From Gemmatirosa kalamazoonensis (lineage in GTDB: Bacteria > Gemmatimonadota > Gemmatimonadetes > Gemmatimonadales > Gemmatimonadaceae): 64,000 nucleotides of DNA. The notes beneath the pieces were generated by a model. The model was not told where the DNA came from, ran no database searches, and worked only from the letters and a program-made list of their open reading frames with translations. The stretch is taken from assembly GCF_000522985.1 (NCBI RefSeq), contig NZ_CP007128.1, positions 248,001 through 312,000 of the forward strand. Reading direction: 5' to 3'. Position 1 is the first letter of the stretch. Every line of letters begins with the position of its first letter. Both the position numbers and the translations under genes were made by a program. Below, in pieces: positions 2,769 through 45,932 of this stretch.

Positions 2769-5443
2769 GCCCCGCCTGGTATGCGCGGCTGCTGCGGCTC
2801 TATCCGCCGGCGTTCCGCGCGCGCTTCGAGGAGGCGCTGCGCGAGGCGTTCCAGGACCAGCGGCGCGACTTCCTCGCCACGTCGCCGTCGCGTCCGGCAC
2901 GCGTCCGATTCTGGGTGCGCGCGCTCGGCGACGTCGTCGCGCACGGCCTGCTCGAGCGGCTGGCCGAGGCGCGCGCCCGGCGACCGTTAGGCACCGACCA
3001 CGTTCCACCGCGAGGCCACGGCATGCGCTCCCTCTGGCAGGACCTCCGCTTCGCCGTGCGCACGCACGCCGCGAACCGCGCCGCCACGGCGGTGGCGGTG
3101 CTCGTGCTCGCGATCGCGATCGGCGCGAACACCGCGATCTTCAGCGTCGTCGAGGGCGTGCTGCTACGCTCCCTGCCGTTTCGCGACCCGGAGCAGCTCG
3201 TCGGCGTGGGGCCGATCCCGCGCGCGCGGCGCGCCGGCGCGACGATATACGGCACCGCGTCGCGCTTCGCGTTCGACGTGTGGGCCGCGCAGCGCGACGC
3301 GTTCGAGGACGTGGCCGGGTACCGCGGCGGGGACCCGGTGCTCAGCGGCCGCGGCGATCCGGAGCGCGTGATCGCGGTGAGCGTGACGCCCAACTTCTTC
3401 CCGCTGCTCGGCGCCGCGCCGTTGTTCGGGCGCGCGGTCACGCGCGACGACGCGCGGCCCGACGCGCCGCCGGTCGCGGTGCTCGGCTACGCGCTGTGGG
3501 CGTCGCGCTTCGGCGCGGACCCGTCGGCGATCGGGCGCACGGTGGTGCTGGACGGCACGCCGCACACGATCGTCGGCGTGATGCCGCGCGCGTTCCGCTT
3601 CCCGGAGAGCGCGCAGCTGTGGCGTGCGCTCGCCACGCCGGCCGCCGCGGGCGCGGAGGAGACGACGCACCGGCCGTACGGTGGCTACTGGACGGTGGCG
3701 CGTCTGCGCCCGGGCGTCACGCCCGCGCACGCGATGGCGCGGCTCGACGTGACGACGGCACGACTCGAGCGCAACGAGGGGGAATCGTGGAGCGGCGTGG
3801 CGGCGGTGGTGATCCCGCTGCGCGATCAGCTCGTGGGCGAGGCGCGCCGGCCGCTGCTGCTCGTCACCGGCGCGGTGGTGTTCGTGCTGCTCGTCGCGTG
3901 CGCGAACGTGGCGAACATCCAGCTCGCGCGCGGGGTCGCGCGACGGCGCGAGGTGGCGGTGCGGCTGGCCATCGGCGCCGGGCGCGGGCGGCTCGTGCGG
4001 CAGCTGCTGACGGAGAGCGTGCTGCTCGCGCTGGCGGGCGGCGCGCTCGGCGTGGCGCTCGCGTACGTGGGCGTGCCGCTGCTCGTGGCGCTGGGCGGCG
4101 ACGAGCTGCCGCACGTCTCGACGATCGGCGTGAACGCGCGCGTGCTCGCGGCGACGCTCCTGGCCAGCGTGCTCACCGGCATCGCGTTCGGGCTCGCGCC
4201 GGCGCTGCAGAGCGTGCGGCGCGCGTCGCCCGCCGCGCTGAAGGAGGCGGCGGACGTCGTGGAGATCGGCGGCGAGCGGCGGCGCGCGGGTGACGTGCTC
4301 GTCGTCGCGCAGGTCGCGCTCACGATGATGCTGCTCGTCGGCGCGGCGCTGCTCGGCGCGAGCTTCGCGCGTCTCGTGCGCGGTGATCCGGGGTTCGAGC
4401 CCGACGGCGTGCTCGTCGCGCAGATCGAGCTGCGCGGCACGCGCCACGCGGGCGAGGAGCCGACGCGCCGGTTCGCGCAGACGGTGCTCGAGCGTGCGCG
4501 CGCCATTCCCGGCGTCACGGCGGCCGCCGTATCGAGCGGCACGCCGCTCGCCGCGGGGGACCTCGGCACCATCTCCGTCGTGGACGGGCCGACACCGCAG
4601 CGGCAGGCCGGGGACGTCACGCTGTTCACCGCGACGACGGCGGAGTACTTCCGCACGTTAGGCATCCCGCTGCGGCGCGGCCGGCTGCTGGCCGACGACG
4701 CGGCCGCCGACCGCGGCTCGATCGTCGTGAGCGAGGCGCTCGCGCGGCGCTTCTTTCCCGGCCGCGATCCGATCGGGCACGTCGTGGAGTTCTACGGCAC
4801 GCAGCGCGGCACGATCGTCGGCGTGGTGGGCGACGCGAAGGGGCTCGCGCTCGACCAGCCCGCGCCGCCGCACATCTATCAGTCGTTCGCCGCGGCGCCG
4901 GCCCCGTACGTGAAGCTCGTCGTGCGCGGCGCGGGCGACGCCGCCGCGCTCGCGGGGGCCGTGCGCACGGCCATCCGGACGGTCGACGCGACGCTTCCCG
5001 TCGATCAGATCACGACGATGCGCGGGCTGATGTCGGAGTCGCTGACGCGGCAGCGGTTCTACGCCGTGCTGCTCGGCGTCTTCGCCACGTCGGCGCTCGT
5101 GATGGCGGCGGCGGGGATCTACGGCGTGGTGAGCTACGGCGTCACGCGCCGCACGCCGGAGCTCGGGGTGCGCGTCGCGTTGGGCGCCACGCGCGGCGAC
5201 GTGCTGCGGCTCGTCGTCGGGCGCAGCGGGCGGCTCGTCGCGGCCGGGATCGTGATCGGCGGCGTGGGCGCGGCGTGGGCGACACGCGTGCTGCGCGCGA
5301 TGCTGTACGAGGTATCGCCGACCGACCCGCGCGTGCTGGCGGGCGTGGCGGCGGTGCTCGGGGTGGTGGCACTCGTCGCGGCGTGGGTGCCGGGACGTCG
5401 CGCGGCGCGCGTGGATCCGACGCGGGCGCTGCGTGCGCACTGA
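2765..5443 (+). CDS. ADOP/MacB-like permease with N-terminal prefix domain
   Basis: An inner-membrane protein of the acidobacterial duplicated orphan permease (ADOP) family: two MacB-periplasmic/FtsX units in one chain, 892 residues. The ATG at 2765 overlaps the PadR stop. Residues 1-85 form a soluble prefix (LLRLYPPAFRARFEEALREAF) often found in PadR-linked ADOPs; the permease proper starts at MRSLWQDLRFAVRT. Visible membrane parts are TM1 (LVLAIAIGANTAIFSVVEG), the central three-helix block around VACANVANIQLARG, and a C-terminal FtsX block ending in PGRRAARVDPTRALRAH. No ATPase is adjacent, so it must borrow one or act as an orphan. It overlaps the next gene by 11 bp. Cargo is unknown; efflux or lipoprotein/lipid transport are family-based guesses. 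Confidence 0.85.
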   Translation: MSPAWYARLLRLYPPAFRARFEEALREAFQDQRRDFLATSPSRPARVRFWVRALGDVVAHGLLERLAEARARRPLGTDHVPPRGHGMRSLWQDLRFAVRTHAANRAATAVAVLVLAIAIGANTAIFSVVEGVLLRSLPFRDPEQLVGVGPIPRARRAGATIYGTASRFAFDVWAAQRDAFEDVAGYRGGDPVLSGRGDPERVIAVSVTPNFFPLLGAAPLFGRAVTRDDARPDAPPVAVLGYALWASRFGADPSAIGRTVVLDGTPHTIVGVMPRAFRFPESAQLWRALATPAAAGAEETTHRPYGGYWTVARLRPGVTPAHAMARLDVTTARLERNEGESWSGVAAVVIPLRDQLVGEARRPLLLVTGAVVFVLLVACANVANIQLARGVARRREVAVRLAIGAGRGRLVRQLLTESVLLALAGGALGVALAYVGVPLLVALGGDELPHVSTIGVNARVLAATLLASVLTGIAFGLAPALQSVRRASPAALKEAADVVEIGGERRRAGDVLVVAQVALTMMLLVGAALLGASFARLVRGDPGFEPDGVLVAQIELRGTRHAGEEPTRRFAQTVLERARAIPGVTAAAVSSGTPLAAGDLGTISVVDGPTPQRQAGDVTLFTATTAEYFRTLGIPLRRGRLLADDAAADRGSIVVSEALARRFFPGRDPIGHVVEFYGTQRGTIVGVVGDAKGLALDQPAPPHIYQSFAAAPAPYVKLVVRGAGDAAALAGAVRTAIRTVDATLPVDQITTMRGLMSESLTRQRFYAVLLGVFATSALVMAAAGIYGVVSYGVTRRTPELGVRVALGATRGDVLRLVVGRSGRLVAAGIVIGGVGAAWATRVLRAMLYEVSPTDPRVLAGVAAVLGVVALVAAWVPGRRAARVDPTRALRAH

Positions 5444-17138: not shown

Positions 17139-17395
17139 TACCGCGGTGCTGATGCGGCGGTTCTGATACCGCGGTTCTGATACCGCGGTTCTGATACCGC
17201 GGTTCTGGAACGGCGGGAGGGGCTGATGCGGCGGGGCGGGTACGGCGGGGCTGACACCGCGGTGCTGATACAGCGGGCAGCCGCCGTACCAGAACCGACC
17301 ATCGGCCGCGCGGTATGAGCCCCGCCGTATCAGCCCCTCCCGCTTCATCGGAACCGAGGCGTCGGAACCGCCGCATCAGAACCGCCGCTGGTAGC
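17139..17395. repeat. palindromic region with 14-bp tandem units
   Basis: The gap between the NlpC gene and the histidine kinase. The left part repeats GATACCGCGGTTCT about four times (period 14, 17137-17205); the right part (about 17275-17390) has the complementary AGAACCG and GAACCGCCGCATCAG words. The whole can fold back over about 250 bp. The kinase start is only 8 bp beyond, so any transcript from upstream would carry this structure in its 5' leader. Confidence 0.75.
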
Positions 17396-17403
17396 TTTGA
17401 GTC

Positions 17404-19215
17404 ATGCCACCGCAACTCCCGCCCGTCGCGAGCGACGAACTCGCGGCGGCGCTGCTGCAGGCCGTCATCACGGCGGCGCTCGCGACGCTCTGCATCTTCC
17501 TGTTCCAGCGCCACCGCAAGGCGTACTTCGCGTGGTTCGCCGCGGCGTGGACGCTGTACCTGCTGCGGCTCGGCGCGATCGGCTCGTTCCTGTTGAGCGG
17601 GAAGCGCCCGTGGCTGTACGTGCATCAGGTCATCACGGGGCTCACCGCGCTCGCACTGCTGTGGGCGGCGCTGGTGTTCTCGCGGCAGCTCGCGTGGCGG
17701 TGGCGCTACCTGCTCGTCGCGCTGTTCCCGCCGGTGTGGTCGGTCGTCGCGATCTACCGGCTCGACTCGTTCCTGCTCGCCGCGGCGCCGATGGTGACGT
17801 TCCTCAGCCTCGCGACGCTGTGGAGCGGATGGACGTTCCTCGACTACCATCGGCGCGTGCGGTCGTCGGGGGCGCGGCTGCTCGCCGGCGCGTTCTTCCT
17901 GTGGGGGTTGCACCATCTCGACTACCCGTTCCTGCGCGCGCAGGGCGCGTGGACGCCGTGGGGCTACTACCTCGACATCCTGTTCGAGCTCGCGGTCGGC
18001 GCGGGGATCCTGGTGCTCGTGCTCGACGACCTGCGGCGCGGCCTCTCGGCGCTCAGCGCGCTGTCGGGCGACCTGCAGCGCGGCGGCGACGTGTTGACCG
18101 CGCTGCTCGAGCGTCCGCTGGAGCTCCCCGCCGTACGCGGGAGCGCATACTTCGCATCCGATCACGAGGAGCGTGGAGCGTGGAGCGTGGAGCGCGGAGC
18201 ACTCGCCGCTGCCACGCTCCACGCTCCACGCTCCACGCTCACCTGCATTCGCGGAGGTGGCTCCTGCGCGGCATGGACGGGGACGCACCCGGAGGGCGAG
18301 CTCGCGACGCTCCTCGACCGCGTGATGCGCTCGGGTCGTCCGCAGGTCGCGCCGGGAGTCGCGGGGCACGCGTCGGTCGCCGCGCTTCCCGTGCTGCGCG
18401 AGGGCGTCGCGACCGGCGCGTTCGTGCTCGCGGGCGACGCGCGCGACCCGTTCACCGCGCTCGACGAGACGTTCCTCCGCGCGCTCGGCCAGCAGGTGGG
18501 CGCGGCGCTGCACAACGCGGCGCTCTACGAGCAGCTCGGCGCGCGCACCGAGGAGCTGCAGCGGCTGTCGACGCGCATGGTGCGGCAGCACGAGGAGGAG
18601 CGCCGCCGGCTGTCGCGCGAGCTGCACGATGAGACCGCGCAGGTGTTCACCGCCGTGAAGATGCAGCTCGGCGTGCTGCGCGCCGACCTGCCCGAGCGGC
18701 GCGAGCGGCTCGACCGCGTGCTGAGCCTCATCGACACCGGGATCGGCAGCATCCGCAGCGTGACGAACGACCTGCGTCCGTCGCTGCTCGACGACCTCGG
18801 GCTGCTGCCGGCGCTGCGCTCGCTGTGCGCCGACTTCCAGGAGCGGAGCGGCGTGCGCACGACGCTCGACGCGCCGGCGACGCTGCCACCGCTGACGGAG
18901 GACGCGGAGCTCGCGCTGTTCCGCGCATTGCAGGAGGGGCTCTCGAACGTCGCGCGGCACGCGGGCGCGGCGTCGGCGCACGTCACGGTGGCGGTGAACG
19001 ACGGCGCCGCGCCGGAGGTCCGCCTAACGATCCGCGACGACGGCGGCGGCCTCGGCGCGCCCGCCGACCTCACGCGATGGGAGCGCGAGGGACACATGGG
19101 GCTCGTCGGCATGCGCGAGCGGATCGCGGCGCTCGGCGGCACGGTGACGATCGGCGACGCGGGACGCGGGGCGCAGCTCAACGTGCGGGTGCCGCTGGCG
19201 ACGCGGGACGGGTGA
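17404..19215 (+). CDS. membrane histidine kinase, NarX/DegS (HisKA_3) type
   Basis: A 603-residue sensor kinase. Residues 15-215 contain about seven hydrophobic segments forming a 7TM-like sensor. A GAF-type domain follows (about 220-370), then HisKA_3 with EEERRRLSRELHDETAQ (phospho-His in ELHDE) and an ATPase domain with LFRALQEGLSNVARHAG, RDDGGGL and GHMGLVGMRERI. Residues 254-280 (positions 18163-18243) are encoded by an in-frame palindromic repeat that interrupts the GAF domain between SAYFAS and CIRGGGSCAAW; the flanks join well without it. The NarL-type receiver at 19496 is the evident partner. Codon use outside the repeat matches neighbours. Confidence 0.85.
   Translation: MPPQLPPVASDELAAALLQAVITAALATLCIFLFQRHRKAYFAWFAAAWTLYLLRLGAIGSFLLSGKRPWLYVHQVITGLTALALLWAALVFSRQLAWRWRYLLVALFPPVWSVVAIYRLDSFLLAAAPMVTFLSLATLWSGWTFLDYHRRVRSSGARLLAGAFFLWGLHHLDYPFLRAQGAWTPWGYYLDILFELAVGAGILVLVLDDLRRGLSALSALSGDLQRGGDVLTALLERPLELPAVRGSAYFASDHEERGAWSVERGALAAATLHAPRSTLTCIRGGGSCAAWTGTHPEGELATLLDRVMRSGRPQVAPGVAGHASVAALPVLREGVATGAFVLAGDARDPFTALDETFLRALGQQVGAALHNAALYEQLGARTEELQRLSTRMVRQHEEERRRLSRELHDETAQVFTAVKMQLGVLRADLPERRERLDRVLSLIDTGIGSIRSVTNDLRPSLLDDLGLLPALRSLCADFQERSGVRTTLDAPATLPPLTEDAELALFRALQEGLSNVARHAGAASAHVTVAVNDGAAPEVRLTIRDDGGGLGAPADLTRWEREGHMGLVGMRERIAALGGTVTIGDAGRGAQLNVRVPLATRDG
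18168..18240. repeat. palindrome with (GGAGCGT)n arms inside kinase gene
   Basis: Left arm 18168-18200 is heptamer repeats of GAGCGTG; right arm 18212-18240 is the complementary CACGCTC repeats. It keeps the reading frame open and codes for about 26 residues (EERGAWSVERGA then LHAPRSTL). The arms match over about 28 bp around a loop of about 11 bp. Confidence 0.88.
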
Positions 19216-19223
19216 CGGGTGAC

Positions 19224-19430
19224 GGCTGGATGCGGCGCGGGCGATACGGCGCCGACGATCCGGCGCGATGGGGCGCTCGCGGCGCCAACAGCGCTCGACT
19301 GCGCGGTACGGCGCCGTTCAGCGGTGTGAGCGTCGTTTGCGCATCATCGCGCTTCACCGTCCGCGCCGTACCGCCCGCGCCGGCCCCGGCGTCGTTTGCG
19401 CCCGCCCCCTGGTAGCTATAGCTACGATCA
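19224..19430. repeat. dispersed palindromic repeat, copy A
   Basis: It fills most of the 280-bp gap between the kinase and its response regulator. The left side (GCGCGGGCGATACGGCGCCG) pairs with the right side (CCGCGCCGTACCGCCCGCGC). The core AGCGGTGTGAGCGTCGTTTG is shared with copies at 31660-31807 and, split, at 42843-42915/43412-43484. It ends about 65 bp before the regulator start and could attenuate kinase-regulator cotranscription. Confidence 0.8.
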
Positions 19431-24440: not shown

Positions 24441-24515
24441 TCGGGACTCGGGACTCGGGACTCGGGACTCGGGGCTGCGGACTCCCGAGTCCCGAGTCCC
24501 GAGTCCCGAGTCCCG
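24441..24515. repeat. palindrome with (GACTCGG)n arms, second copy
   Basis: Left arm about 24441-24473 (GGGACTC units), right arm 24482-24515. It occupies the 87-bp spacer between the sigma-54 regulator stop and the NtrY-like kinase start, ending about 8 bp from the kinase ATG. A stable hairpin in the intercistronic mRNA could lower kinase translation or stabilise the upstream message. Same family as 9729-9800. Confidence 0.88.
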
Positions 24516-24520
24516 ACCGC

Positions 24521-31622: not shown

Positions 31623-31659
31623 CGGTGTGAGGTTTGGGATCTTACTGCGCTGGGGACGG

Positions 31660-31807
31660 CGGCGGCGATACTGTGCGGACGATACGGCACGATGGTGCGC
31701 GAGCGACGCTCACCGCGCGGCACGGCGCCGTTCAGCGGTGCGAGCGTCGTTCGCGCCTCATCGCGCTGTATCGTCGGCGCCGTATCGCCCGCGCCGTCAA
31801 CAGCGCG
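31660..31807. repeat. dispersed palindromic repeat, copy B
   Basis: The element fills the 197-bp spacer between two permeases. The left arm (GGCGATACTGTGCGGACGAT, from 31664) pairs with the right arm (CATCGCGCTGTATCGTCGGC to about 31795). The core AGCGGTGCGAGCGTCGTTCG (31734-31753) matches copy A and the split copy C/D. It may separate transcription or stabilise mRNA halves within the array. Confidence 0.82.
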
Positions 31808-40119: not shown

Positions 40120-40436
40120 TGGTTGGTACGGCGGGACGATCGACGGCGGGACGACGAACGGCGGGACGATCGACGGCGGGACGTCGAACGGCGGGACGAT
40201 CCAGGGCGGGATCGCTCGCGCGCGATCGTAGTTACCTGGGGGGCTCCCCCCCCTTCGCCCAAGGTGCTGCGCGCCGATTGCGCTCCGGTACCAATCCGAC
40301 GCCGACCGGGTCCCTCCGAACGCCGCAGGATCCCGCCGTAGATCGTCCCGCCGTAGATCGTCCCGCCGTAGACGTCCCGCCGTAGACGTCCCGCCGTAGA
40401 CGTCCCGCCGTAGACGTCCCGCCGTTCGTCCTCCCC
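40120..40436. repeat. palindromic region with 15-bp tandem units
   Basis: In the 499-bp gap between the ATPase start (39942) and the stop of array member 6 (40442). The left part (about 40130-40215) repeats CGGCGGGACGATCGA five times with small changes; the right part (about 40325-40436) repeats CCGCCGTAGATCGTC or CCGCCGTAGACGTC about seven times. The two are complementary in the core (GGCGGGACGATC against GATCGTCCCGCC). The unique middle (40220-40320) shows no gene. The gap also must hold the ATPase promoter. Confidence 0.82.
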
Positions 40437-40441
40437 CCCTC

Positions 40442-42829
40442 TCACTCGTTCCTTAGCACCTCCGCCGGATCCACCCGCGCCGCGCGCCGCGCCGGCACCA
40501 CGCTCGCCGCGAGCGCCACCAGCGCGAGCAGCAGCGGCGCGGCGACGAACGCCACCGGGTCCGTCGGCGTCACGCCGAACAGCACCCGCCGCATCACCTG
40601 CGACACCGCGAGCGCGAGCGCGATCCCCACCGCGAGCCCGATCCCCGTGAGCGCGAGCCCGCGCCGCGCGACGAGGCGCACCACCTGCCCGCCGCGCGCG
40701 CCGAGCGCCACGCGCACCCCGATCTCGCGCGACCGCTGCGACACCGCGTAGGCCGTGAGCCCGTACACGCCGGCCGCCGCCAGCACGAGCGCGGCGATGC
40801 CGAACGCGCCGAACAGCGCCGAGAACACCTTCGGCTGCCAGTGCGTGTCGCGGATCACCGTCTCCATCGGCGTGACGTCCACGGGCGCGATCCCGGGCGC
40901 CGCCCCGCGCAGCGCGGCGCGCATCGCCGGCGCGAGCGTCACCGTCGGCGCCGTCGACCGCACGACGAACGTCGCGATCCCTGGCGGCTCGGCCCCGAAC
41001 GGGAGATAGAGCTCCACCGTCGGCGGCTCGTTGAGCCCCCACTGCTGCACGTCGCCCACCACGCCGACGACCGTCGCCCACTTCCCGCGCCCGCGCGGCC
41101 CGAGATGCACCCGGCCGCCTAACGCGGAGCGCCCGGGCCACAGCGAGCGCGCCATCGCCGAGCTGACGATCACCACCGTGGTGTCGCGCGACTCGACCGC
41201 CGTGAAGTCGCGTCCGGCGAGCACCGGCACGCCCAGCGCGCGGAACCAGCCGGGCGTCACCGCGTTCCACGTGACCTCGCGGCGCCCGTCGTCCTCGCGG
41301 AGCGCCATGCCGTCGACGTCCACGCGCGTGACGTCGGCGCCGCGCATCGGCACCTGCGTCGCCGCGGCGGCCGCGCGCACGCCCGGCAGCGACGCGAGCC
41401 GCTCCACCGTACGCGCCACCGCGTCGTCGCGCGCGCCACCGATCTCGTAGCCGCCCCCGGCGAACACCACGCGCAGCGTCAGCAGGCCGCGCGTGTCGAA
41501 CCCCGGATCCACGCGCTGCAGCGCGGCGATGCTGCGCCCGAGCAGCGATGCGCCGATGACGAGGACGAGCGACAGCGCGAGCTGCGCGACGACGAGCGCG
41601 CCGCGCGTGCGCGTCTGCTGCACGCCGCCGGCCGAACGCGCCCCCGCGACGCCGAGCGCCTGGCGCGACGCGCGCAGCGCGGCCGGCAGCCCCGCGACGA
41701 GGCCGGCGAGCAGCGCCGCGCCTAACGCGTACGCGAACACGCGTCGGTCGGTCGAAAAGTCCATCCACGCCGGCTGCTCCACCGGGATGGCGGCGAGGAA
41801 TCCGCGCAGTCCCCACGAGGCGAGCAGCAGGCCGATCGCGCCCGCCGCGAGCGCGAGCAGCGTCGACTCGCACAGCACGAGCGACAGCAGCCGTCCACGA
41901 TGCGCGCCGAGCGCGGCACGCATCGCCAGCTCGCGCTCGCGCGACGCGCCGCGCGCCACCACCACGTTCGCCGCGTTCGCGCAGGCGATGAGCAGCACGA
42001 GCAGCGTCGCCGCCTGGAAGATCGCGAGCGCCGGCCGCATCTCGCTCATCATGTCGTCGCGCATCGTGCGCACCGTCGGCCGCCACCCGGCGTTCGTCGT
42101 CGGGTACTGCGCCTCGAGCCGCCGCGCGACGACGTCGAGCTCCGTGCGCGCCGCCTCGAGCGACACGCCGGCGCGGAGACGCGCCACGCCGGTCACCGCG
42201 TGGTCCCCGCGCACGTCGCGCGTCGGGTCGAGCGTGAGCGGCGTCCACAGCCCCTCCGTCGACGGAAACGCGAACCCCTCCGGCATCACGCCGACGACGG
42301 TGTACGGCTCCCCGTTCACGAGCACGCGCCGCCCCACCACGGCGCGGTCGCCGTCGAACAGCCGCTGCCACGTGTCGAACGACACGATCGCCACGCGCCC
42401 CTGCCCCGGCCGCTCCTCCTCCGCCACGAAGCCTCGACCGAGCAGCGGACGCACGCCGAGCACGGCAAACAGCGACGCGCTCACCGCCGTGCCCTCCACG
42501 TACGCCGCGCCGCTCGCCGTCTGCACGTTGTAGCCGCGCCCCTGGTACGCGGCGAAGCCGACGAACGCGCGCGCGGCGCCGCGGTAATCGGCGAAGTCGG
42601 GCAGCGACAGCGACCCGCGCACGCCGCCCGGCGCCTCGGCGCGCCGCTCGCGCACGACGACGAGCCGCCCCGGATCCGCGTACGGCAGTGGACGCAGCAG
42701 CAGCGCGTTCACGATCCCGAACATCGTCGTCGTGACGGCGAGGCCGAGCGTGAGGCACAGCACCACGACGCCGGACGACGACGGCGAGCGCACGGCGGCG
42801 CGCGCGGCGTGGCGGAGATCGGTCAGCAT
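40442..42829 (-). CDS. ADOP permease, array member 6
   Basis: 795 residues. ATG 42829 (MLTDLRHAARAAVRSP) is preferred over an upstream in-frame start since AGGAGG lies just 5-6 bp before it, one of the best ribosome sites in the window. TM1 is LTLGLAVTTTMFGIVNAL. The central block is LLIACANAANVVVARGASRERE; the end is SVVPARRAARVDPAEVLRNE. Its upstream neighbour is the palindrome arm at 42843-42915, directly behind the ribosome site. Confidence 0.88.
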   Translation of the reverse strand: MLTDLRHAARAAVRSPSSSGVVVLCLTLGLAVTTTMFGIVNALLLRPLPYADPGRLVVVRERRAEAPGGVRGSLSLPDFADYRGAARAFVGFAAYQGRGYNVQTASGAAYVEGTAVSASLFAVLGVRPLLGRGFVAEEERPGQGRVAIVSFDTWQRLFDGDRAVVGRRVLVNGEPYTVVGVMPEGFAFPSTEGLWTPLTLDPTRDVRGDHAVTGVARLRAGVSLEAARTELDVVARRLEAQYPTTNAGWRPTVRTMRDDMMSEMRPALAIFQAATLLVLLIACANAANVVVARGASRERELAMRAALGAHRGRLLSLVLCESTLLALAAGAIGLLLASWGLRGFLAAIPVEQPAWMDFSTDRRVFAYALGAALLAGLVAGLPAALRASRQALGVAGARSAGGVQQTRTRGALVVAQLALSLVLVIGASLLGRSIAALQRVDPGFDTRGLLTLRVVFAGGGYEIGGARDDAVARTVERLASLPGVRAAAAATQVPMRGADVTRVDVDGMALREDDGRREVTWNAVTPGWFRALGVPVLAGRDFTAVESRDTTVVIVSSAMARSLWPGRSALGGRVHLGPRGRGKWATVVGVVGDVQQWGLNEPPTVELYLPFGAEPPGIATFVVRSTAPTVTLAPAMRAALRGAAPGIAPVDVTPMETVIRDTHWQPKVFSALFGAFGIAALVLAAAGVYGLTAYAVSQRSREIGVRVALGARGGQVVRLVARRGLALTGIGLAVGIALALAVSQVMRRVLFGVTPTDPVAFVAAPLLLALVALAASVVPARRAARVDPAEVLRNE

Positions 42830-42842
42830 CGTTCCTCCTGAT

Positions 42843-42915
42843 GGCGCTGATGACGGCGCGGGCGGTACGGCGCGGACGGTGCGGCGCGATGATGCGCGAA
42901 CGACGCTCACACCGC
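42843..42915 (-). repeat. dispersed palindromic repeat, left arm (copy C)
   Basis: A 73-bp segment whose reverse complement matches 43412-43484 at about 60 of 73 positions, with the shared ends GGCGCTGATGACGGCGCGGG against CCCGCGCCGTCATCGGCGCC. It also matches the right half of copies A and B. The partner arm lies 500 bp away on the other side of the four-helix-bundle gene. Confidence 0.85.
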
Positions 42916-43032
42916 GGCACTGCGCCGCACTGCGCCGCCCTGCGTCGTGAGGGATCGGGGTGCGTTGATTCGGTTGGTGCGGTGGATTCGGACGCGCGAT
43001 GGTGGATCGGTCAACCCGTCCTCTGATCGCTC

Positions 43033-43389
43033 ATGGGTTCCTATCGAGACCTCCGCGTGTGGAAGGAGTCGTTCGATCTCTCGCTCGACATCGATCGGCT
43101 CGCCGACCAGCTCCCGCGAAAGCGCGCTGCGCTTGCCGATCAGATCCGCCGCTCCAGCGAGGGAATCCCGCGTTCGATCGCCGAGGGCCACGGCCGCTCG
43201 GACGCCGACTTCGCGCGCTACCTCGACATCGCGGAAGGCTCACTGCACGAGCTGGAGACCGACATCATGCGCATCGGCATACGCTCCCTGGCCCCATCGA
43301 AGGACGTCATCGACATCGAGCGCCGCATCCGTCACGTCCAACAACTGCTCTCCGGCCTCCTGCGCTGCCTCCGCCCACCCACCACCTGA
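43033..43389 (+). CDS. four-helix bundle protein (23S rRNA-IVS/Avd-like)
   Basis: A 118-residue protein of the four-helix bundle family first seen in 23S rRNA intervening sequences and related to DGR Avd proteins. Blocks: YRDLRVWKESFDLSLDID, then RRSSEGIPRSIAEGHGRSD and FARYLDIAEGSLHELETDI. These SIPSNIAEG-like and ARGSxxELExQ-like motifs are diagnostic. It is the only plus-strand gene inside the permease array and sits between two inverted 73-bp arms. No reverse transcriptase, template repeat or rRNA is nearby, so neither DGR nor rRNA insertion applies. Its role is unknown; a small mobile cassette is suggested. Confidence 0.9.
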   Translation: MGSYRDLRVWKESFDLSLDIDRLADQLPRKRAALADQIRRSSEGIPRSIAEGHGRSDADFARYLDIAEGSLHELETDIMRIGIRSLAPSKDVIDIERRIRHVQQLLSGLLRCLRPPTT

Positions 43390-43411
43390 CCCCATAGCAC
43401 GGCGCCGTTGA

Positions 43412-43484
43412 GCGGTGTTTGCGTCTCTAGCGCCTCATCGCGCCGCATCGTAAGCGCAGTATCGCCCGCGCCGTCATCGGCGCC
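43412..43484 (+). repeat. dispersed palindromic repeat, right arm (copy D)
   Basis: Partner of 42843-42915. It starts 22 bp after the four-helix-bundle stop and ends 3 bp before the stop codon of array member 7 at 43488. Its core GCGGTGTTTGCGTC is diverged from copies A-C, while the last 30 bp are nearly identical. Confidence 0.85.
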
Positions 43485-43487
43485 GTT

Positions 43488-45932
43488 TCATTCGGCCCGC
43501 AGGGCGATCGTCGGCTCCACGCGCGCCGCCCGCCTCGCCGGAATCGCCCCCGCCCCCACCGCCACGACCGACAGCAGCACCGTCACGCCGAACAGCACGC
43601 CGGGATCGAGTGGATCCGTGCCGAGCAGCATCCCGCGCATGACGCGCGTGGACGCCGCCGCGCCCAGCAGCCCGAGCGCCGCGCCCGCCGCGGCGAGCCG
43701 CACCGCGCGTCCGCCGACGAGCGCCAGGATGTCGCGCCGCGTCGCCCCTAACGTGAGCCGGATGCCGATCTCGCGCGTGCGCCGCGCCACCCCGTACGCG
43801 ATCACGCCGTACACGCCGACGGCCGTGACGAGCACCGCGAACGCGGACAGCGCCGTGAGCGTCACCGCGATGAGCCAGAACGGCCGCGCCGTGGCGCGCG
43901 CCCCCGCGGCGAGCGTCTGCACGCGCTCCACCGGCTCCTCGGGCAGCGCCGCCGCCACCGCGCCGGGGATCGCCGCGACGAGCGCGCGCACGTCGGCCGG
44001 CGTGCGCGCCCGCGCGAGCACCGACAGCGGACGGCCCGGCCACTGCGCGAACGGCACGTACGCCAGGTTCTGCACGCGCGTCGACGTGCCGGTGCGCGGC
44101 TCGTCGGCGACGACGCCGACCACCGTGCGCCACGCGACCGTCGCCTCGCTCGGCCCGAGCTTGAGCCGACGGCCTAACGCCGACGCGCCGGGCCACAGGC
44201 GCCGCGCCATCGCCTCGTTGATGACGACGACCGGCTCCGCGCCCGCGCCGTCGGCCGCCGTCGTCAGCCGGCCGCTCACCGCGCGCAGCGCGCGCGCCTG
44301 CCACCATCCCGGCGTCACGGCGTACGCGAAGCGCGGCGACGCACCCGCGGGCGTCGCGCCCCCCTCGATCGTGATCGCCCGGTCGCTCGCGCCGAAGCCG
44401 GCGAGGAACTCGAACCGCGACGCACCCGCCGCCTCCACGCCCGGCAGCCGCGTGACGCGCTCGGCGAGCTGCTCGGCCGCCGCCGCGACGCGCGACGAGT
44501 CGACCCACAGCGTGTCGAGCAGCGCGACGTCGGCCGACACGAGGCGCGTCGCGTCGGCGCCCTCCGCGGGGCGCATGAGACGCAGCGAGGTCTTCACGAG
44601 CAGCCCCGCGCCGGCGAGCAGCATGAGCGACGCGGCGAGCTCGCCGACGACGAGCGCGTCGCGCATCCGGCTCTGGCGCCGCGTGGCGCTCGCCGTCGGC
44701 GCGGAGTCCTTCAGCGCCGCCTGCACGTCCGGGCGCGCCGCGCGCCGCGCCACGCCGCCGCCGACGATCGCCACCGTGAGCGCGGTGACGCCGACGCAGA
44801 ACAGCACCGCGCGCCAGTCCATCCGCAGCTCGATCCAGTACGGGATCGACCCCTCGACCTGCGCGGCGATCGCCGTCAGCGCGGCCCGCGCGGCGAGGAA
44901 GCCGGCCGCGGCGCCCATCGCCGCGAGCACCGCCACTTCGACGATGACGTGCCGCGCGAGCTGCCGCCCGCCGGCGCCTAACGCGGCGCGTACCGCGAGC
45001 TCGCGCCACCGCCCCGCGGCGCGCGCGAGCAGCAGCCCGGCGAGGTTCGCGCACACCACGAGCTGCACGAGCACCACGGCGCCGAACAGCGTCCAGCCGA
45101 AGATGGCCTCGTCCCCCGCCATGTCGGTGCGCAGCGGCGTCACCGCCGCGCTCCACTCGGCCTGCGTCTCGGGATGCGCGCGCTCGATCGCCCGCGCGAG
45201 CGTCGCCATCTCCGCCGATGCCGCGGGCGCGCCGACGCCGCGCCGCAGTCGCGCGACGACGCCGAGCTCGCGCGCGTCGCGTCCCGTGCTCGCGGTCGAC
45301 GGCGTGAGCGGCACCCACAGCTCGGCGAACTCCGGAAAGCGGAAGCGCGGCGCGAGCACGCCGACGACGACGTGCGCGAGCCCGTTCAGTCGCACCGTGC
45401 GTCCGACGATCGACGAGTCGCCGCCGAAGCGGCGCTGCCACAGCGCGTGGCCGAGCACCACGACGCGCACCGCGTCGCGCCCCTCGTCGGCCGCGACGAG
45501 CGAGCGGCCCAGCACCGGCCGCGCGCCGACGAGCGCGAGCAGCGGCGCCGTCGCCACCGCGCCCTGCACGCGCTCCGCGACGCGCCGCGCGCGTCCCGCG
45601 GCCACCGTCCCCTCGTCGCCGCCGAGCACCACGCCGCGCTCCACGTACGCGCCCATCGCGTCGAACGACCGCGCGTCGCGCTTCCAGTCGAGGAACCCCT
45701 CGTACGACGTGCCCACGCCGCACCCCGCGCACAGCTTCGTCGCGCTCGTCTCGTGCACGTCGACGAGCCGCTCGGCGTCGGGGAACGGGATCGGGCGGAG
45801 CGCGACCGCGTCCAGAAGGCTGAACGCCACCGTGTTCGCGCCGAGTCCGACGGCGAGGCAGAGCACCGCGGCGAACGTGAACGCGGGCGCGCGGCGCAGC
45901 AGGCGAAGCACCAACCGCAGATCGGTCGACAC
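43488..45932 (-). CDS. ADOP permease, array member 7
   Basis: 814 residues from GTG 45932 (STDLRLVLRLLRRAPAF), chosen by alignment with the other members' starts; the open frame begins 15 codons earlier. TM1 is LAVGLGANTVAFSLLDAV. The first periplasmic domain has a short Cys pair, KLCAGCGVGTSYEGF, absent from the others. The central block QLVVCANLAGLLLARAAGR and the end GAIPARRAARVEPTIALRAE are the most diverged of the array. Its 5' gap to member 8 holds a nested palindrome. Confidence 0.87.
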   Translation of the reverse strand: MSTDLRLVLRLLRRAPAFTFAAVLCLAVGLGANTVAFSLLDAVALRPIPFPDAERLVDVHETSATKLCAGCGVGTSYEGFLDWKRDARSFDAMGAYVERGVVLGGDEGTVAAGRARRVAERVQGAVATAPLLALVGARPVLGRSLVAADEGRDAVRVVVLGHALWQRRFGGDSSIVGRTVRLNGLAHVVVGVLAPRFRFPEFAELWVPLTPSTASTGRDARELGVVARLRRGVGAPAASAEMATLARAIERAHPETQAEWSAAVTPLRTDMAGDEAIFGWTLFGAVVLVQLVVCANLAGLLLARAAGRWRELAVRAALGAGGRQLARHVIVEVAVLAAMGAAAGFLAARAALTAIAAQVEGSIPYWIELRMDWRAVLFCVGVTALTVAIVGGGVARRAARPDVQAALKDSAPTASATRRQSRMRDALVVGELAASLMLLAGAGLLVKTSLRLMRPAEGADATRLVSADVALLDTLWVDSSRVAAAAEQLAERVTRLPGVEAAGASRFEFLAGFGASDRAITIEGGATPAGASPRFAYAVTPGWWQARALRAVSGRLTTAADGAGAEPVVVINEAMARRLWPGASALGRRLKLGPSEATVAWRTVVGVVADEPRTGTSTRVQNLAYVPFAQWPGRPLSVLARARTPADVRALVAAIPGAVAAALPEEPVERVQTLAAGARATARPFWLIAVTLTALSAFAVLVTAVGVYGVIAYGVARRTREIGIRLTLGATRRDILALVGGRAVRLAAAGAALGLLGAAASTRVMRGMLLGTDPLDPGVLFGVTVLLSVVAVGAGAIPARRAARVEPTIALRAE

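Follow-up and report, generated by a model that had tools for sequence, protein, structure and literature searches.

In the window analysed here (the whole stretch of 64,000 nucleotides of Gemmatirosa kalamazoonensis DNA), a small four-helix-bundle (4HB) gene lies in the loop of a split palindrome that occupies the gap between two tandem permease-type genes. A sequence-only reading of the window had offered two explanations, a gene captured in a palindrome or a MITE-like unit which carries the gene. The question raised by this locus is what the gene and the palindrome have to do with each other, and we approached it through the focal copy, the other 4HB genes of this genome and its relatives, and the sites at which such units are present or missing.

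The split palindrome and its gene

The two inverted arms which had been described were found again, and an inverted-repeat search extended them from 73 bp to 85 nt each with a spacing of 472 nt (Table 1), while the original 73-bp portions matched at 84% by BLAST. The focal arms scored 45, against a best score of 21 when the same geometry was slid over the window (2311 control positions). By eye, the left arm stops immediately ahead of the ribosome-binding site of the following permease-type gene, and on the minus strand large genes lie on both sides of the focal unit, from about 36.7 to 48.6 kb. No target-site duplication was visible by eye outside the arms, and the empty sites elsewhere have diverged too far, or are too repetitive, for one to be established.

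Table 1. Features of the focal palindrome and related hairpins in the window (C2 and L numbers are our contig and locus labels).
Feature	Position	Strand	Remarks
Left (5') arm	42843..42927	+	G-rich; imperfect 14-15 bp repeats; 85-nt inverted repeat, 81% complementary
Right (3') arm	43400..43484	-	by eye, reaches to within a few bases of the neighbouring permease gene's stop codon
Loop of focal palindrome	42928..43399	+	aligned to solo copies, read by eye
4HB gene, 118 aa	43033..43389	+	PF05635 (23S_rRNA_IVP), TIGR02436 (23S-rRNA-IVS)
Copy A, solo palindrome of focal family, no gene	19229..19382		sequence matches, alignment
Copy B, solo palindrome of focal family, no gene	31645..31806 (left edge approximate)		sequence matches, alignment
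Solo palindrome, another family (15-mer GGCGGGACGATCGAC)	40127..40438		cognate to 4HB gene C2:4973452 (L062)
Solo hairpin, TCGGGAC heptamer family	24441..24516 (C2:272441-272516)		cognate to 4HB gene C2:2342635 (L061)
Solo hairpin, GGAGCGT heptamer family	18168..18240 (C2:266168-266240)		cognate to 4HB gene C2:598039 (L059)
Solo palindrome, family of gene-bearing C2:1826338 (L060)	17168..17385 (C2:265168-265385)		DNA search

The gene between the arms is where it had been placed, and its protein matched PF05635 in Pfam (E = 2.2e-23, 82.9 bits, curated cut-off 33.8) and TIGR02436 (E = 3e-20, 72.4 bits, cut-off 24). The proteins of this family are widespread and two PDB structures are matched by it; the family profile found 2gsc (XCC0516) with E=2.4e-40. 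The structure of XCC0516 is a pentameric ring (PMC4990558), a shape which would suit nucleic-acid binding by the 4HB protein. No catalytic site is recognisable in the 4HB protein, so any chemistry must be done by host enzymes. Three other readings were considered and rejected: for a defence system there was no match in PADLOC, positions 42500-43900 had no Rfam match to a known RNA family, and for a phage origin a related 4HB protein gave no tblastn match in a phage collection.

Copies A and B, which had been described as the same two arms lying close together, are indeed short-loop palindromes of the focal family. When the focal loop was compared with such copies by eye, remnants of the solo-type loop were seen to border an extra segment at about 42940-43399, GCACTGCGCCGC... 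on the left and GCACGGCGCCGTTGAGCGG on the right. The edges of the focal loop agree with the loop of the solo palindromes. In the focal copy the 4HB gene may therefore have been captured into a pre-existing hairpin loop; alternatively, the solo palindromes may be deletion derivatives.

Arms and hairpin families at other 4HB genes

The genome comprises 7.48 Mb in four contigs, and our genome-wide counts are based on an 11.6% (864-kb) sample together with DNA searches of the own genome. The focal arm family occurs at about 40 places genome-wide (matches merged by place, some copies being single arms), nearly all of them short-loop palindromes of 165-190 bp with a loop of about 30 nt, and the focal copy is the only member found with a long, gene-bearing loop. 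Nine PF05635 genes are present in the genome and eight of them lie between inverted short-repeat arrays, with a different unit at each locus, such as CGGGACT (61-bp perfect arms), GGAGCGT, GGGCAGGA, GCTGCGTG, a 14-mer, a 15-mer and the focal family. The ninth gene (L064, C2:1503900-1504199), which among the full-length 4HB genes of the genome is the most divergent, is not in a loop; it has a complete hairpin on each side, and the two belong to different repeat families. The suggestion that further arm-flanked 4HB genes should be sought in the genome was therefore rewarded, and the opposite expectation, that other 4HB genes would never be flanked by arms, is contradicted by the flanked loci both here and in relatives.

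The same repeats are found without genes. In the 864-kb sample, the commonest tandem units are 4HB-arm units (ACTCGGG in 18 arrays, AGGAGGGC in 12, and ACGCTCC in 10), and 4HB-arm units are also present as gene-free hairpins. The arms of seven of the eight 4HB genes recur in this sample as 3-13 palindromic elements, compared with 7 of 400 random 60-mers, and for the eighth (L060) further paired copies were found genome-wide. Two further families were counted across the whole genome. The arms of L060 itself (2889-2959 and 3487-3557) are 71 bp long and 100% complementary, whereas identity to the other copies of the family is only about 80%; the perfect arms may thus have formed, or undergone conversion, recently.

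Beyond this genome, 45 of 59 Gemmatimonadaceae genomes possess the 4HB family, and flanking inverted arms were found at 56 of the 68 loci examined in them, at 13 of 19 loci in other Gemmatimonadota families (controls 0/237), and at 24 of 29 loci in the order of Rhodanobacter (controls 0/359). Among 79 scored loci, mainly from other phyla, 47 (about 60%) passed the threshold, which 0.45% of control positions passed; arms were undetected at about 40% of these diverse loci and at 12 of the 68 family loci, some of which are cut by contig ends. We also scanned two Gemmatimonadaceae genomes blindly for inverted repeats with loops of 250-800 bp, in sampled regions chosen to include 4HB loci, and all seven repeats found in one (G017) and six of nine in the other (G006) hold a 4HB gene. 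The position of a 4HB gene between inverted short-repeat arms is the rule and not a curiosity.

The units of the arms are mostly heptamers. The dominant period of seven bases (lag-7 match of 0.71, z = 34, outside Gemmatimonadaceae and z = 24 inside) is accompanied by harmonics at 14 and 21. G-richness of the 5' arm is usual, at 50 of 54 and 40 of 42 arms and, in two further sets, 12/13 and 24/24; as the arms are inverted, the polarity is the same whichever strand is read.

The gene and its hairpins differ in copy number. Within one genome, the 4HB pairs examined have at most 67% identity and are never close copies, whereas the hairpins are; at such identities the gene does not multiply inside genomes. 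For example, Rhodanobacter DHB23 has one 4HB match in its genome, while three units of the adjacent heptamer match 196 times (backward-read control, 0). In a small comparison, 41 heptamer-built hairpins were found in 1.65 Mb from three 4HB-positive genomes and none in 370 kb from three related 4HB-negative genomes. Several orthologous 4HBs of one genus (g7) retain both place and unit, and a cross-genus, non-syntenic 4HB pair with 61.5% identity has almost the same heptamer (GAGCGTG/GAGCGTC); several ortholog pairs, such as L083/L086 and L283/L254, have no obvious common unit. In Xanthomonadales and in the same genus g7, inheritance of the gene is vertical, at a single site, and thus it is not often mobile.

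Filled and empty sites

We compared filled and empty sites at accB-accC, at nrdB-nrdA and at two plasmid sites, and found the arms and the gene present or absent as one block. At six Xanthomonadales-type loci (flanks read at all six, annotation tested at one), a 4HB unit lies between accB (biotin carboxyl carrier protein) and accC (biotin carboxylase), and in 18 genomes of this order which lack a 4HB the two genes are, in 16 cases, between a few and a few tens of bases apart, the empty sites having no hairpin at all. The accB-accC loci with heptamer arms are L331, L333, L334, L339, L341 and L348; the gene pair is interrupted in this way in many Xanthomonadales-type genomes, and the block is missing in relatives. 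In the relatives which carry it, the 4HB gene has GGGATTC/GGGAATC arms, and in PDB its product is most similar to X. campestris XCC0516, with about 70% identity. On plasmids of Nostocales, three sites hold the unit in some plasmids and lack it in others, and at one site two plasmids have different repeat hairpins and no 4HB. At the site filled in L180 and L181, Nostoc plasmid L183 has a heptamer palindrome that differs in its loop and lacks a 4HB, and in another Nostoc plasmid (L189, 600-980) the site of the L180 unit holds a heptamer hairpin of ATTCAAA type whose loop is unrelated, so that this site appears to be a hotspot for such insertions.

The L183 site bears on a reading in which a selfish 4HB gene homes to the loops of pre-existing hairpins, the hairpin families being spread by another agent. 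This reading also agrees with the solo-type loop sequence on both sides of the focal gene, and with the location of IVS ORFs in 23S rRNA helices (PMC4990558). However, it does not predict the association of one gene with one family, the units kept by orthologs or the absence of heptamer hairpins in 4HB-free relatives, and the empty accB-accC sites offer no hairpin into which a gene could have homed. We consider such homing unlikely.

The position of units at operon junctions (accB-accC, nrdB-nrdA and the focal permease junction) favours another reading, that the 4HB protein binds the RNA of its cognate repeat hairpins and acts as a regulator, with effects on transcript stability, RNase III processing or operon decoupling, with its own arms autoregulatory and with hairpins kept by selection and not by copying. 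The polarity of G-rich and C-rich arms fits one RNA hairpin, RNase III cuts IVS RNA (PMC4990558), and Xanthomonas GGGAATC-type repeats are mostly transcribed and near ORF ends (PMC4692102). Regulation alone leaves unexplained the spread to tens or hundreds of sites and the very similar repeats within a genome, and as the whole explanation we regard it as improbable; the two readings, regulation and the partnership favoured below, are compatible and not exclusive.

A third reading is that polymerase slippage and fold-back make intergenic short repeats where 4HB genes are merely tolerated. It would agree with the differing repeat number of the near-identical copies L180 and L181, and slippage was proposed earlier for the heptanucleotide excess (cited in PMC4679880 and PMC4692102). 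This reading is strongly disfavoured and in our estimate highly improbable, as the enrichment is specific to 4HB genes (none of the 359 controls), the blind scan of G017 found a 4HB gene in every large-loop repeat, and one unit recurs at many sites.

A gene-hairpin partnership and known systems

The partnership between a 4HB gene and a repeat family is evident from the anatomy: arms and gene form one block, cognate solo families accompany genes which stay single-copy, the arms have a constant polarity, and the unit is conserved in several ortholog sets. Since a 4HB gene lies between mirror-image arrays whose repeats are those of dozens of gene-free hairpins, the gene may make or spread this class of repeats. 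As the best reading, and a somewhat probable one, we consider a partnership resembling REPIN-RAYT, in which a non-transposase 4HB protein serves its cognate hairpins and a palindrome population has the focal locus as its gene-bearing member. The unit consists of an inverted short-repeat array, a single 4HB gene in the loop and the reverse-complement array, with one gene cognate to one repeat family and its arms shared with tens of short-loop, gene-free hairpins. We infer that the protein binds the repeat and acts in trans, and that the hairpins multiply through it. It would most likely recognise the cognate hairpin as single-stranded RNA or DNA, and together with host enzymes would most likely let the hairpin be made, copied or kept.

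Of the two earlier alternatives, the carrier unit is supported as a general class, with arms usual at 4HB genes and the block present or absent together. The idea of one captured gene in one MITE family is not, each 4HB gene checked in the genome having its own repeat family. Nor does the unit behave as a classic transposon: the gene-bearing member has no transposase, no clear target-site duplication was found, and the gene stays single while the hairpins multiply. Assignment to the MITEs was rejected on the missing transposase.

REPIN-RAYT systems likewise combine a single-copy gene with a cognate palindrome population, have several distinct pairs per genome and have the gene adjoining the palindromes (PMC3116915). 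The units described here agree in copy number and palindromy, with many dispersed palindromes per family, and in the single-copy genes that each have their own family, with several such pairs in the genome. They differ in that PF05635 is the only gene in the unit, a four-helix bundle in place of the HUH/Y1 (TnpA_REP) transposase, in that the arms are tandem short repeats, and in that the gene is normally inside the palindrome loop. Inverted termini of short tandem repeats are also found in eukaryotic foldback transposons, which in this respect are similar to the 4HB units; protein content and hosts differ, and there is no evidence for common ancestry. The DGR accessory protein Avd is also a four-helix bundle and is said to be a distant relative; it was not returned when PDB was searched with the 4HB-family profile. 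Avd_like has been recorded beside DGR reverse transcriptases (PMC8934634).

The 23S rRNA IVSs of Coxiella and Leptospira, with their S23p/IVP ORF, resemble the focal unit in that a palindromic stem encloses, in its loop, a gene of this protein family. The focal unit, unlike these, lies outside 23S rRNA genes, between protein-coding genes of permease type. Its arms are long and built of repeats, and the other members of its family, which has about 40 places, are gene-free. In the Coxiella IVS the terminal inverted stem measures 28 bp, and tandem heptamers (GACAGAT) stand directly upstream of the ORF (PMC4990558); because it combines the same protein, a terminal stem and tandem heptamers, IVSs look like a special case of the units described here. 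The link between 4HB genes and hairpins thus offers an explanation for IVS ORFs sitting in hairpins.

In unit length and G-rich character, the 4HB arms are like the known heptanucleotide repeats (cyanobacterial STRR, Xanthomonas GGGAATC and Nostoc GGGGA(C/T)T). In many bacterial genomes, such repeats are reported to outnumber all other longer simple repeats, and they have no accepted cause (PMC4679880 and PMC4692102); in X. campestris, GGGAATC heptamers, together with 70 inverted pairs, were described without a cause (PMC4692102). Within the accessible portions of these heptanucleotide-repeat papers no protein partner is named and the authors generally saw no link to mobile elements, and we found no described link between the 4HB protein and dispersed heptamer hairpins in the open-access literature. 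We tentatively propose, as something plausible which falls short of probable, that 4HB proteins are the makers of bacterial heptanucleotide (STRR/GGGAATC-type) repeats and represent a widespread class of elements without transposase, each a self-perpetuating pair of a small toroid that binds nucleic acid and the tandem-repeat hairpin cognate to it, the 23S rRNA IVSs being one special case and GxxExxY (PDDEXK_3) nucleases perhaps a parallel with 9-11-mer hairpins. Linking one 4HB gene to one repeat family makes both the function of the protein and the origin of heptamer repeats directly testable.

A second kind of gene in this genome has a similar setting and may represent a parallel gene-plus-hairpin class. 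At the PF13366 loci L271, L273, L274, L275 and L278, GxxExxY-type (PDDEXK_3) genes are flanked by inverted or complete 9-11-mer hairpins; AAGAAGGACTG occurs on both sides of L273 and GCAGAGGAC around L275, and an orphan 11-mer hairpin family goes with L273.
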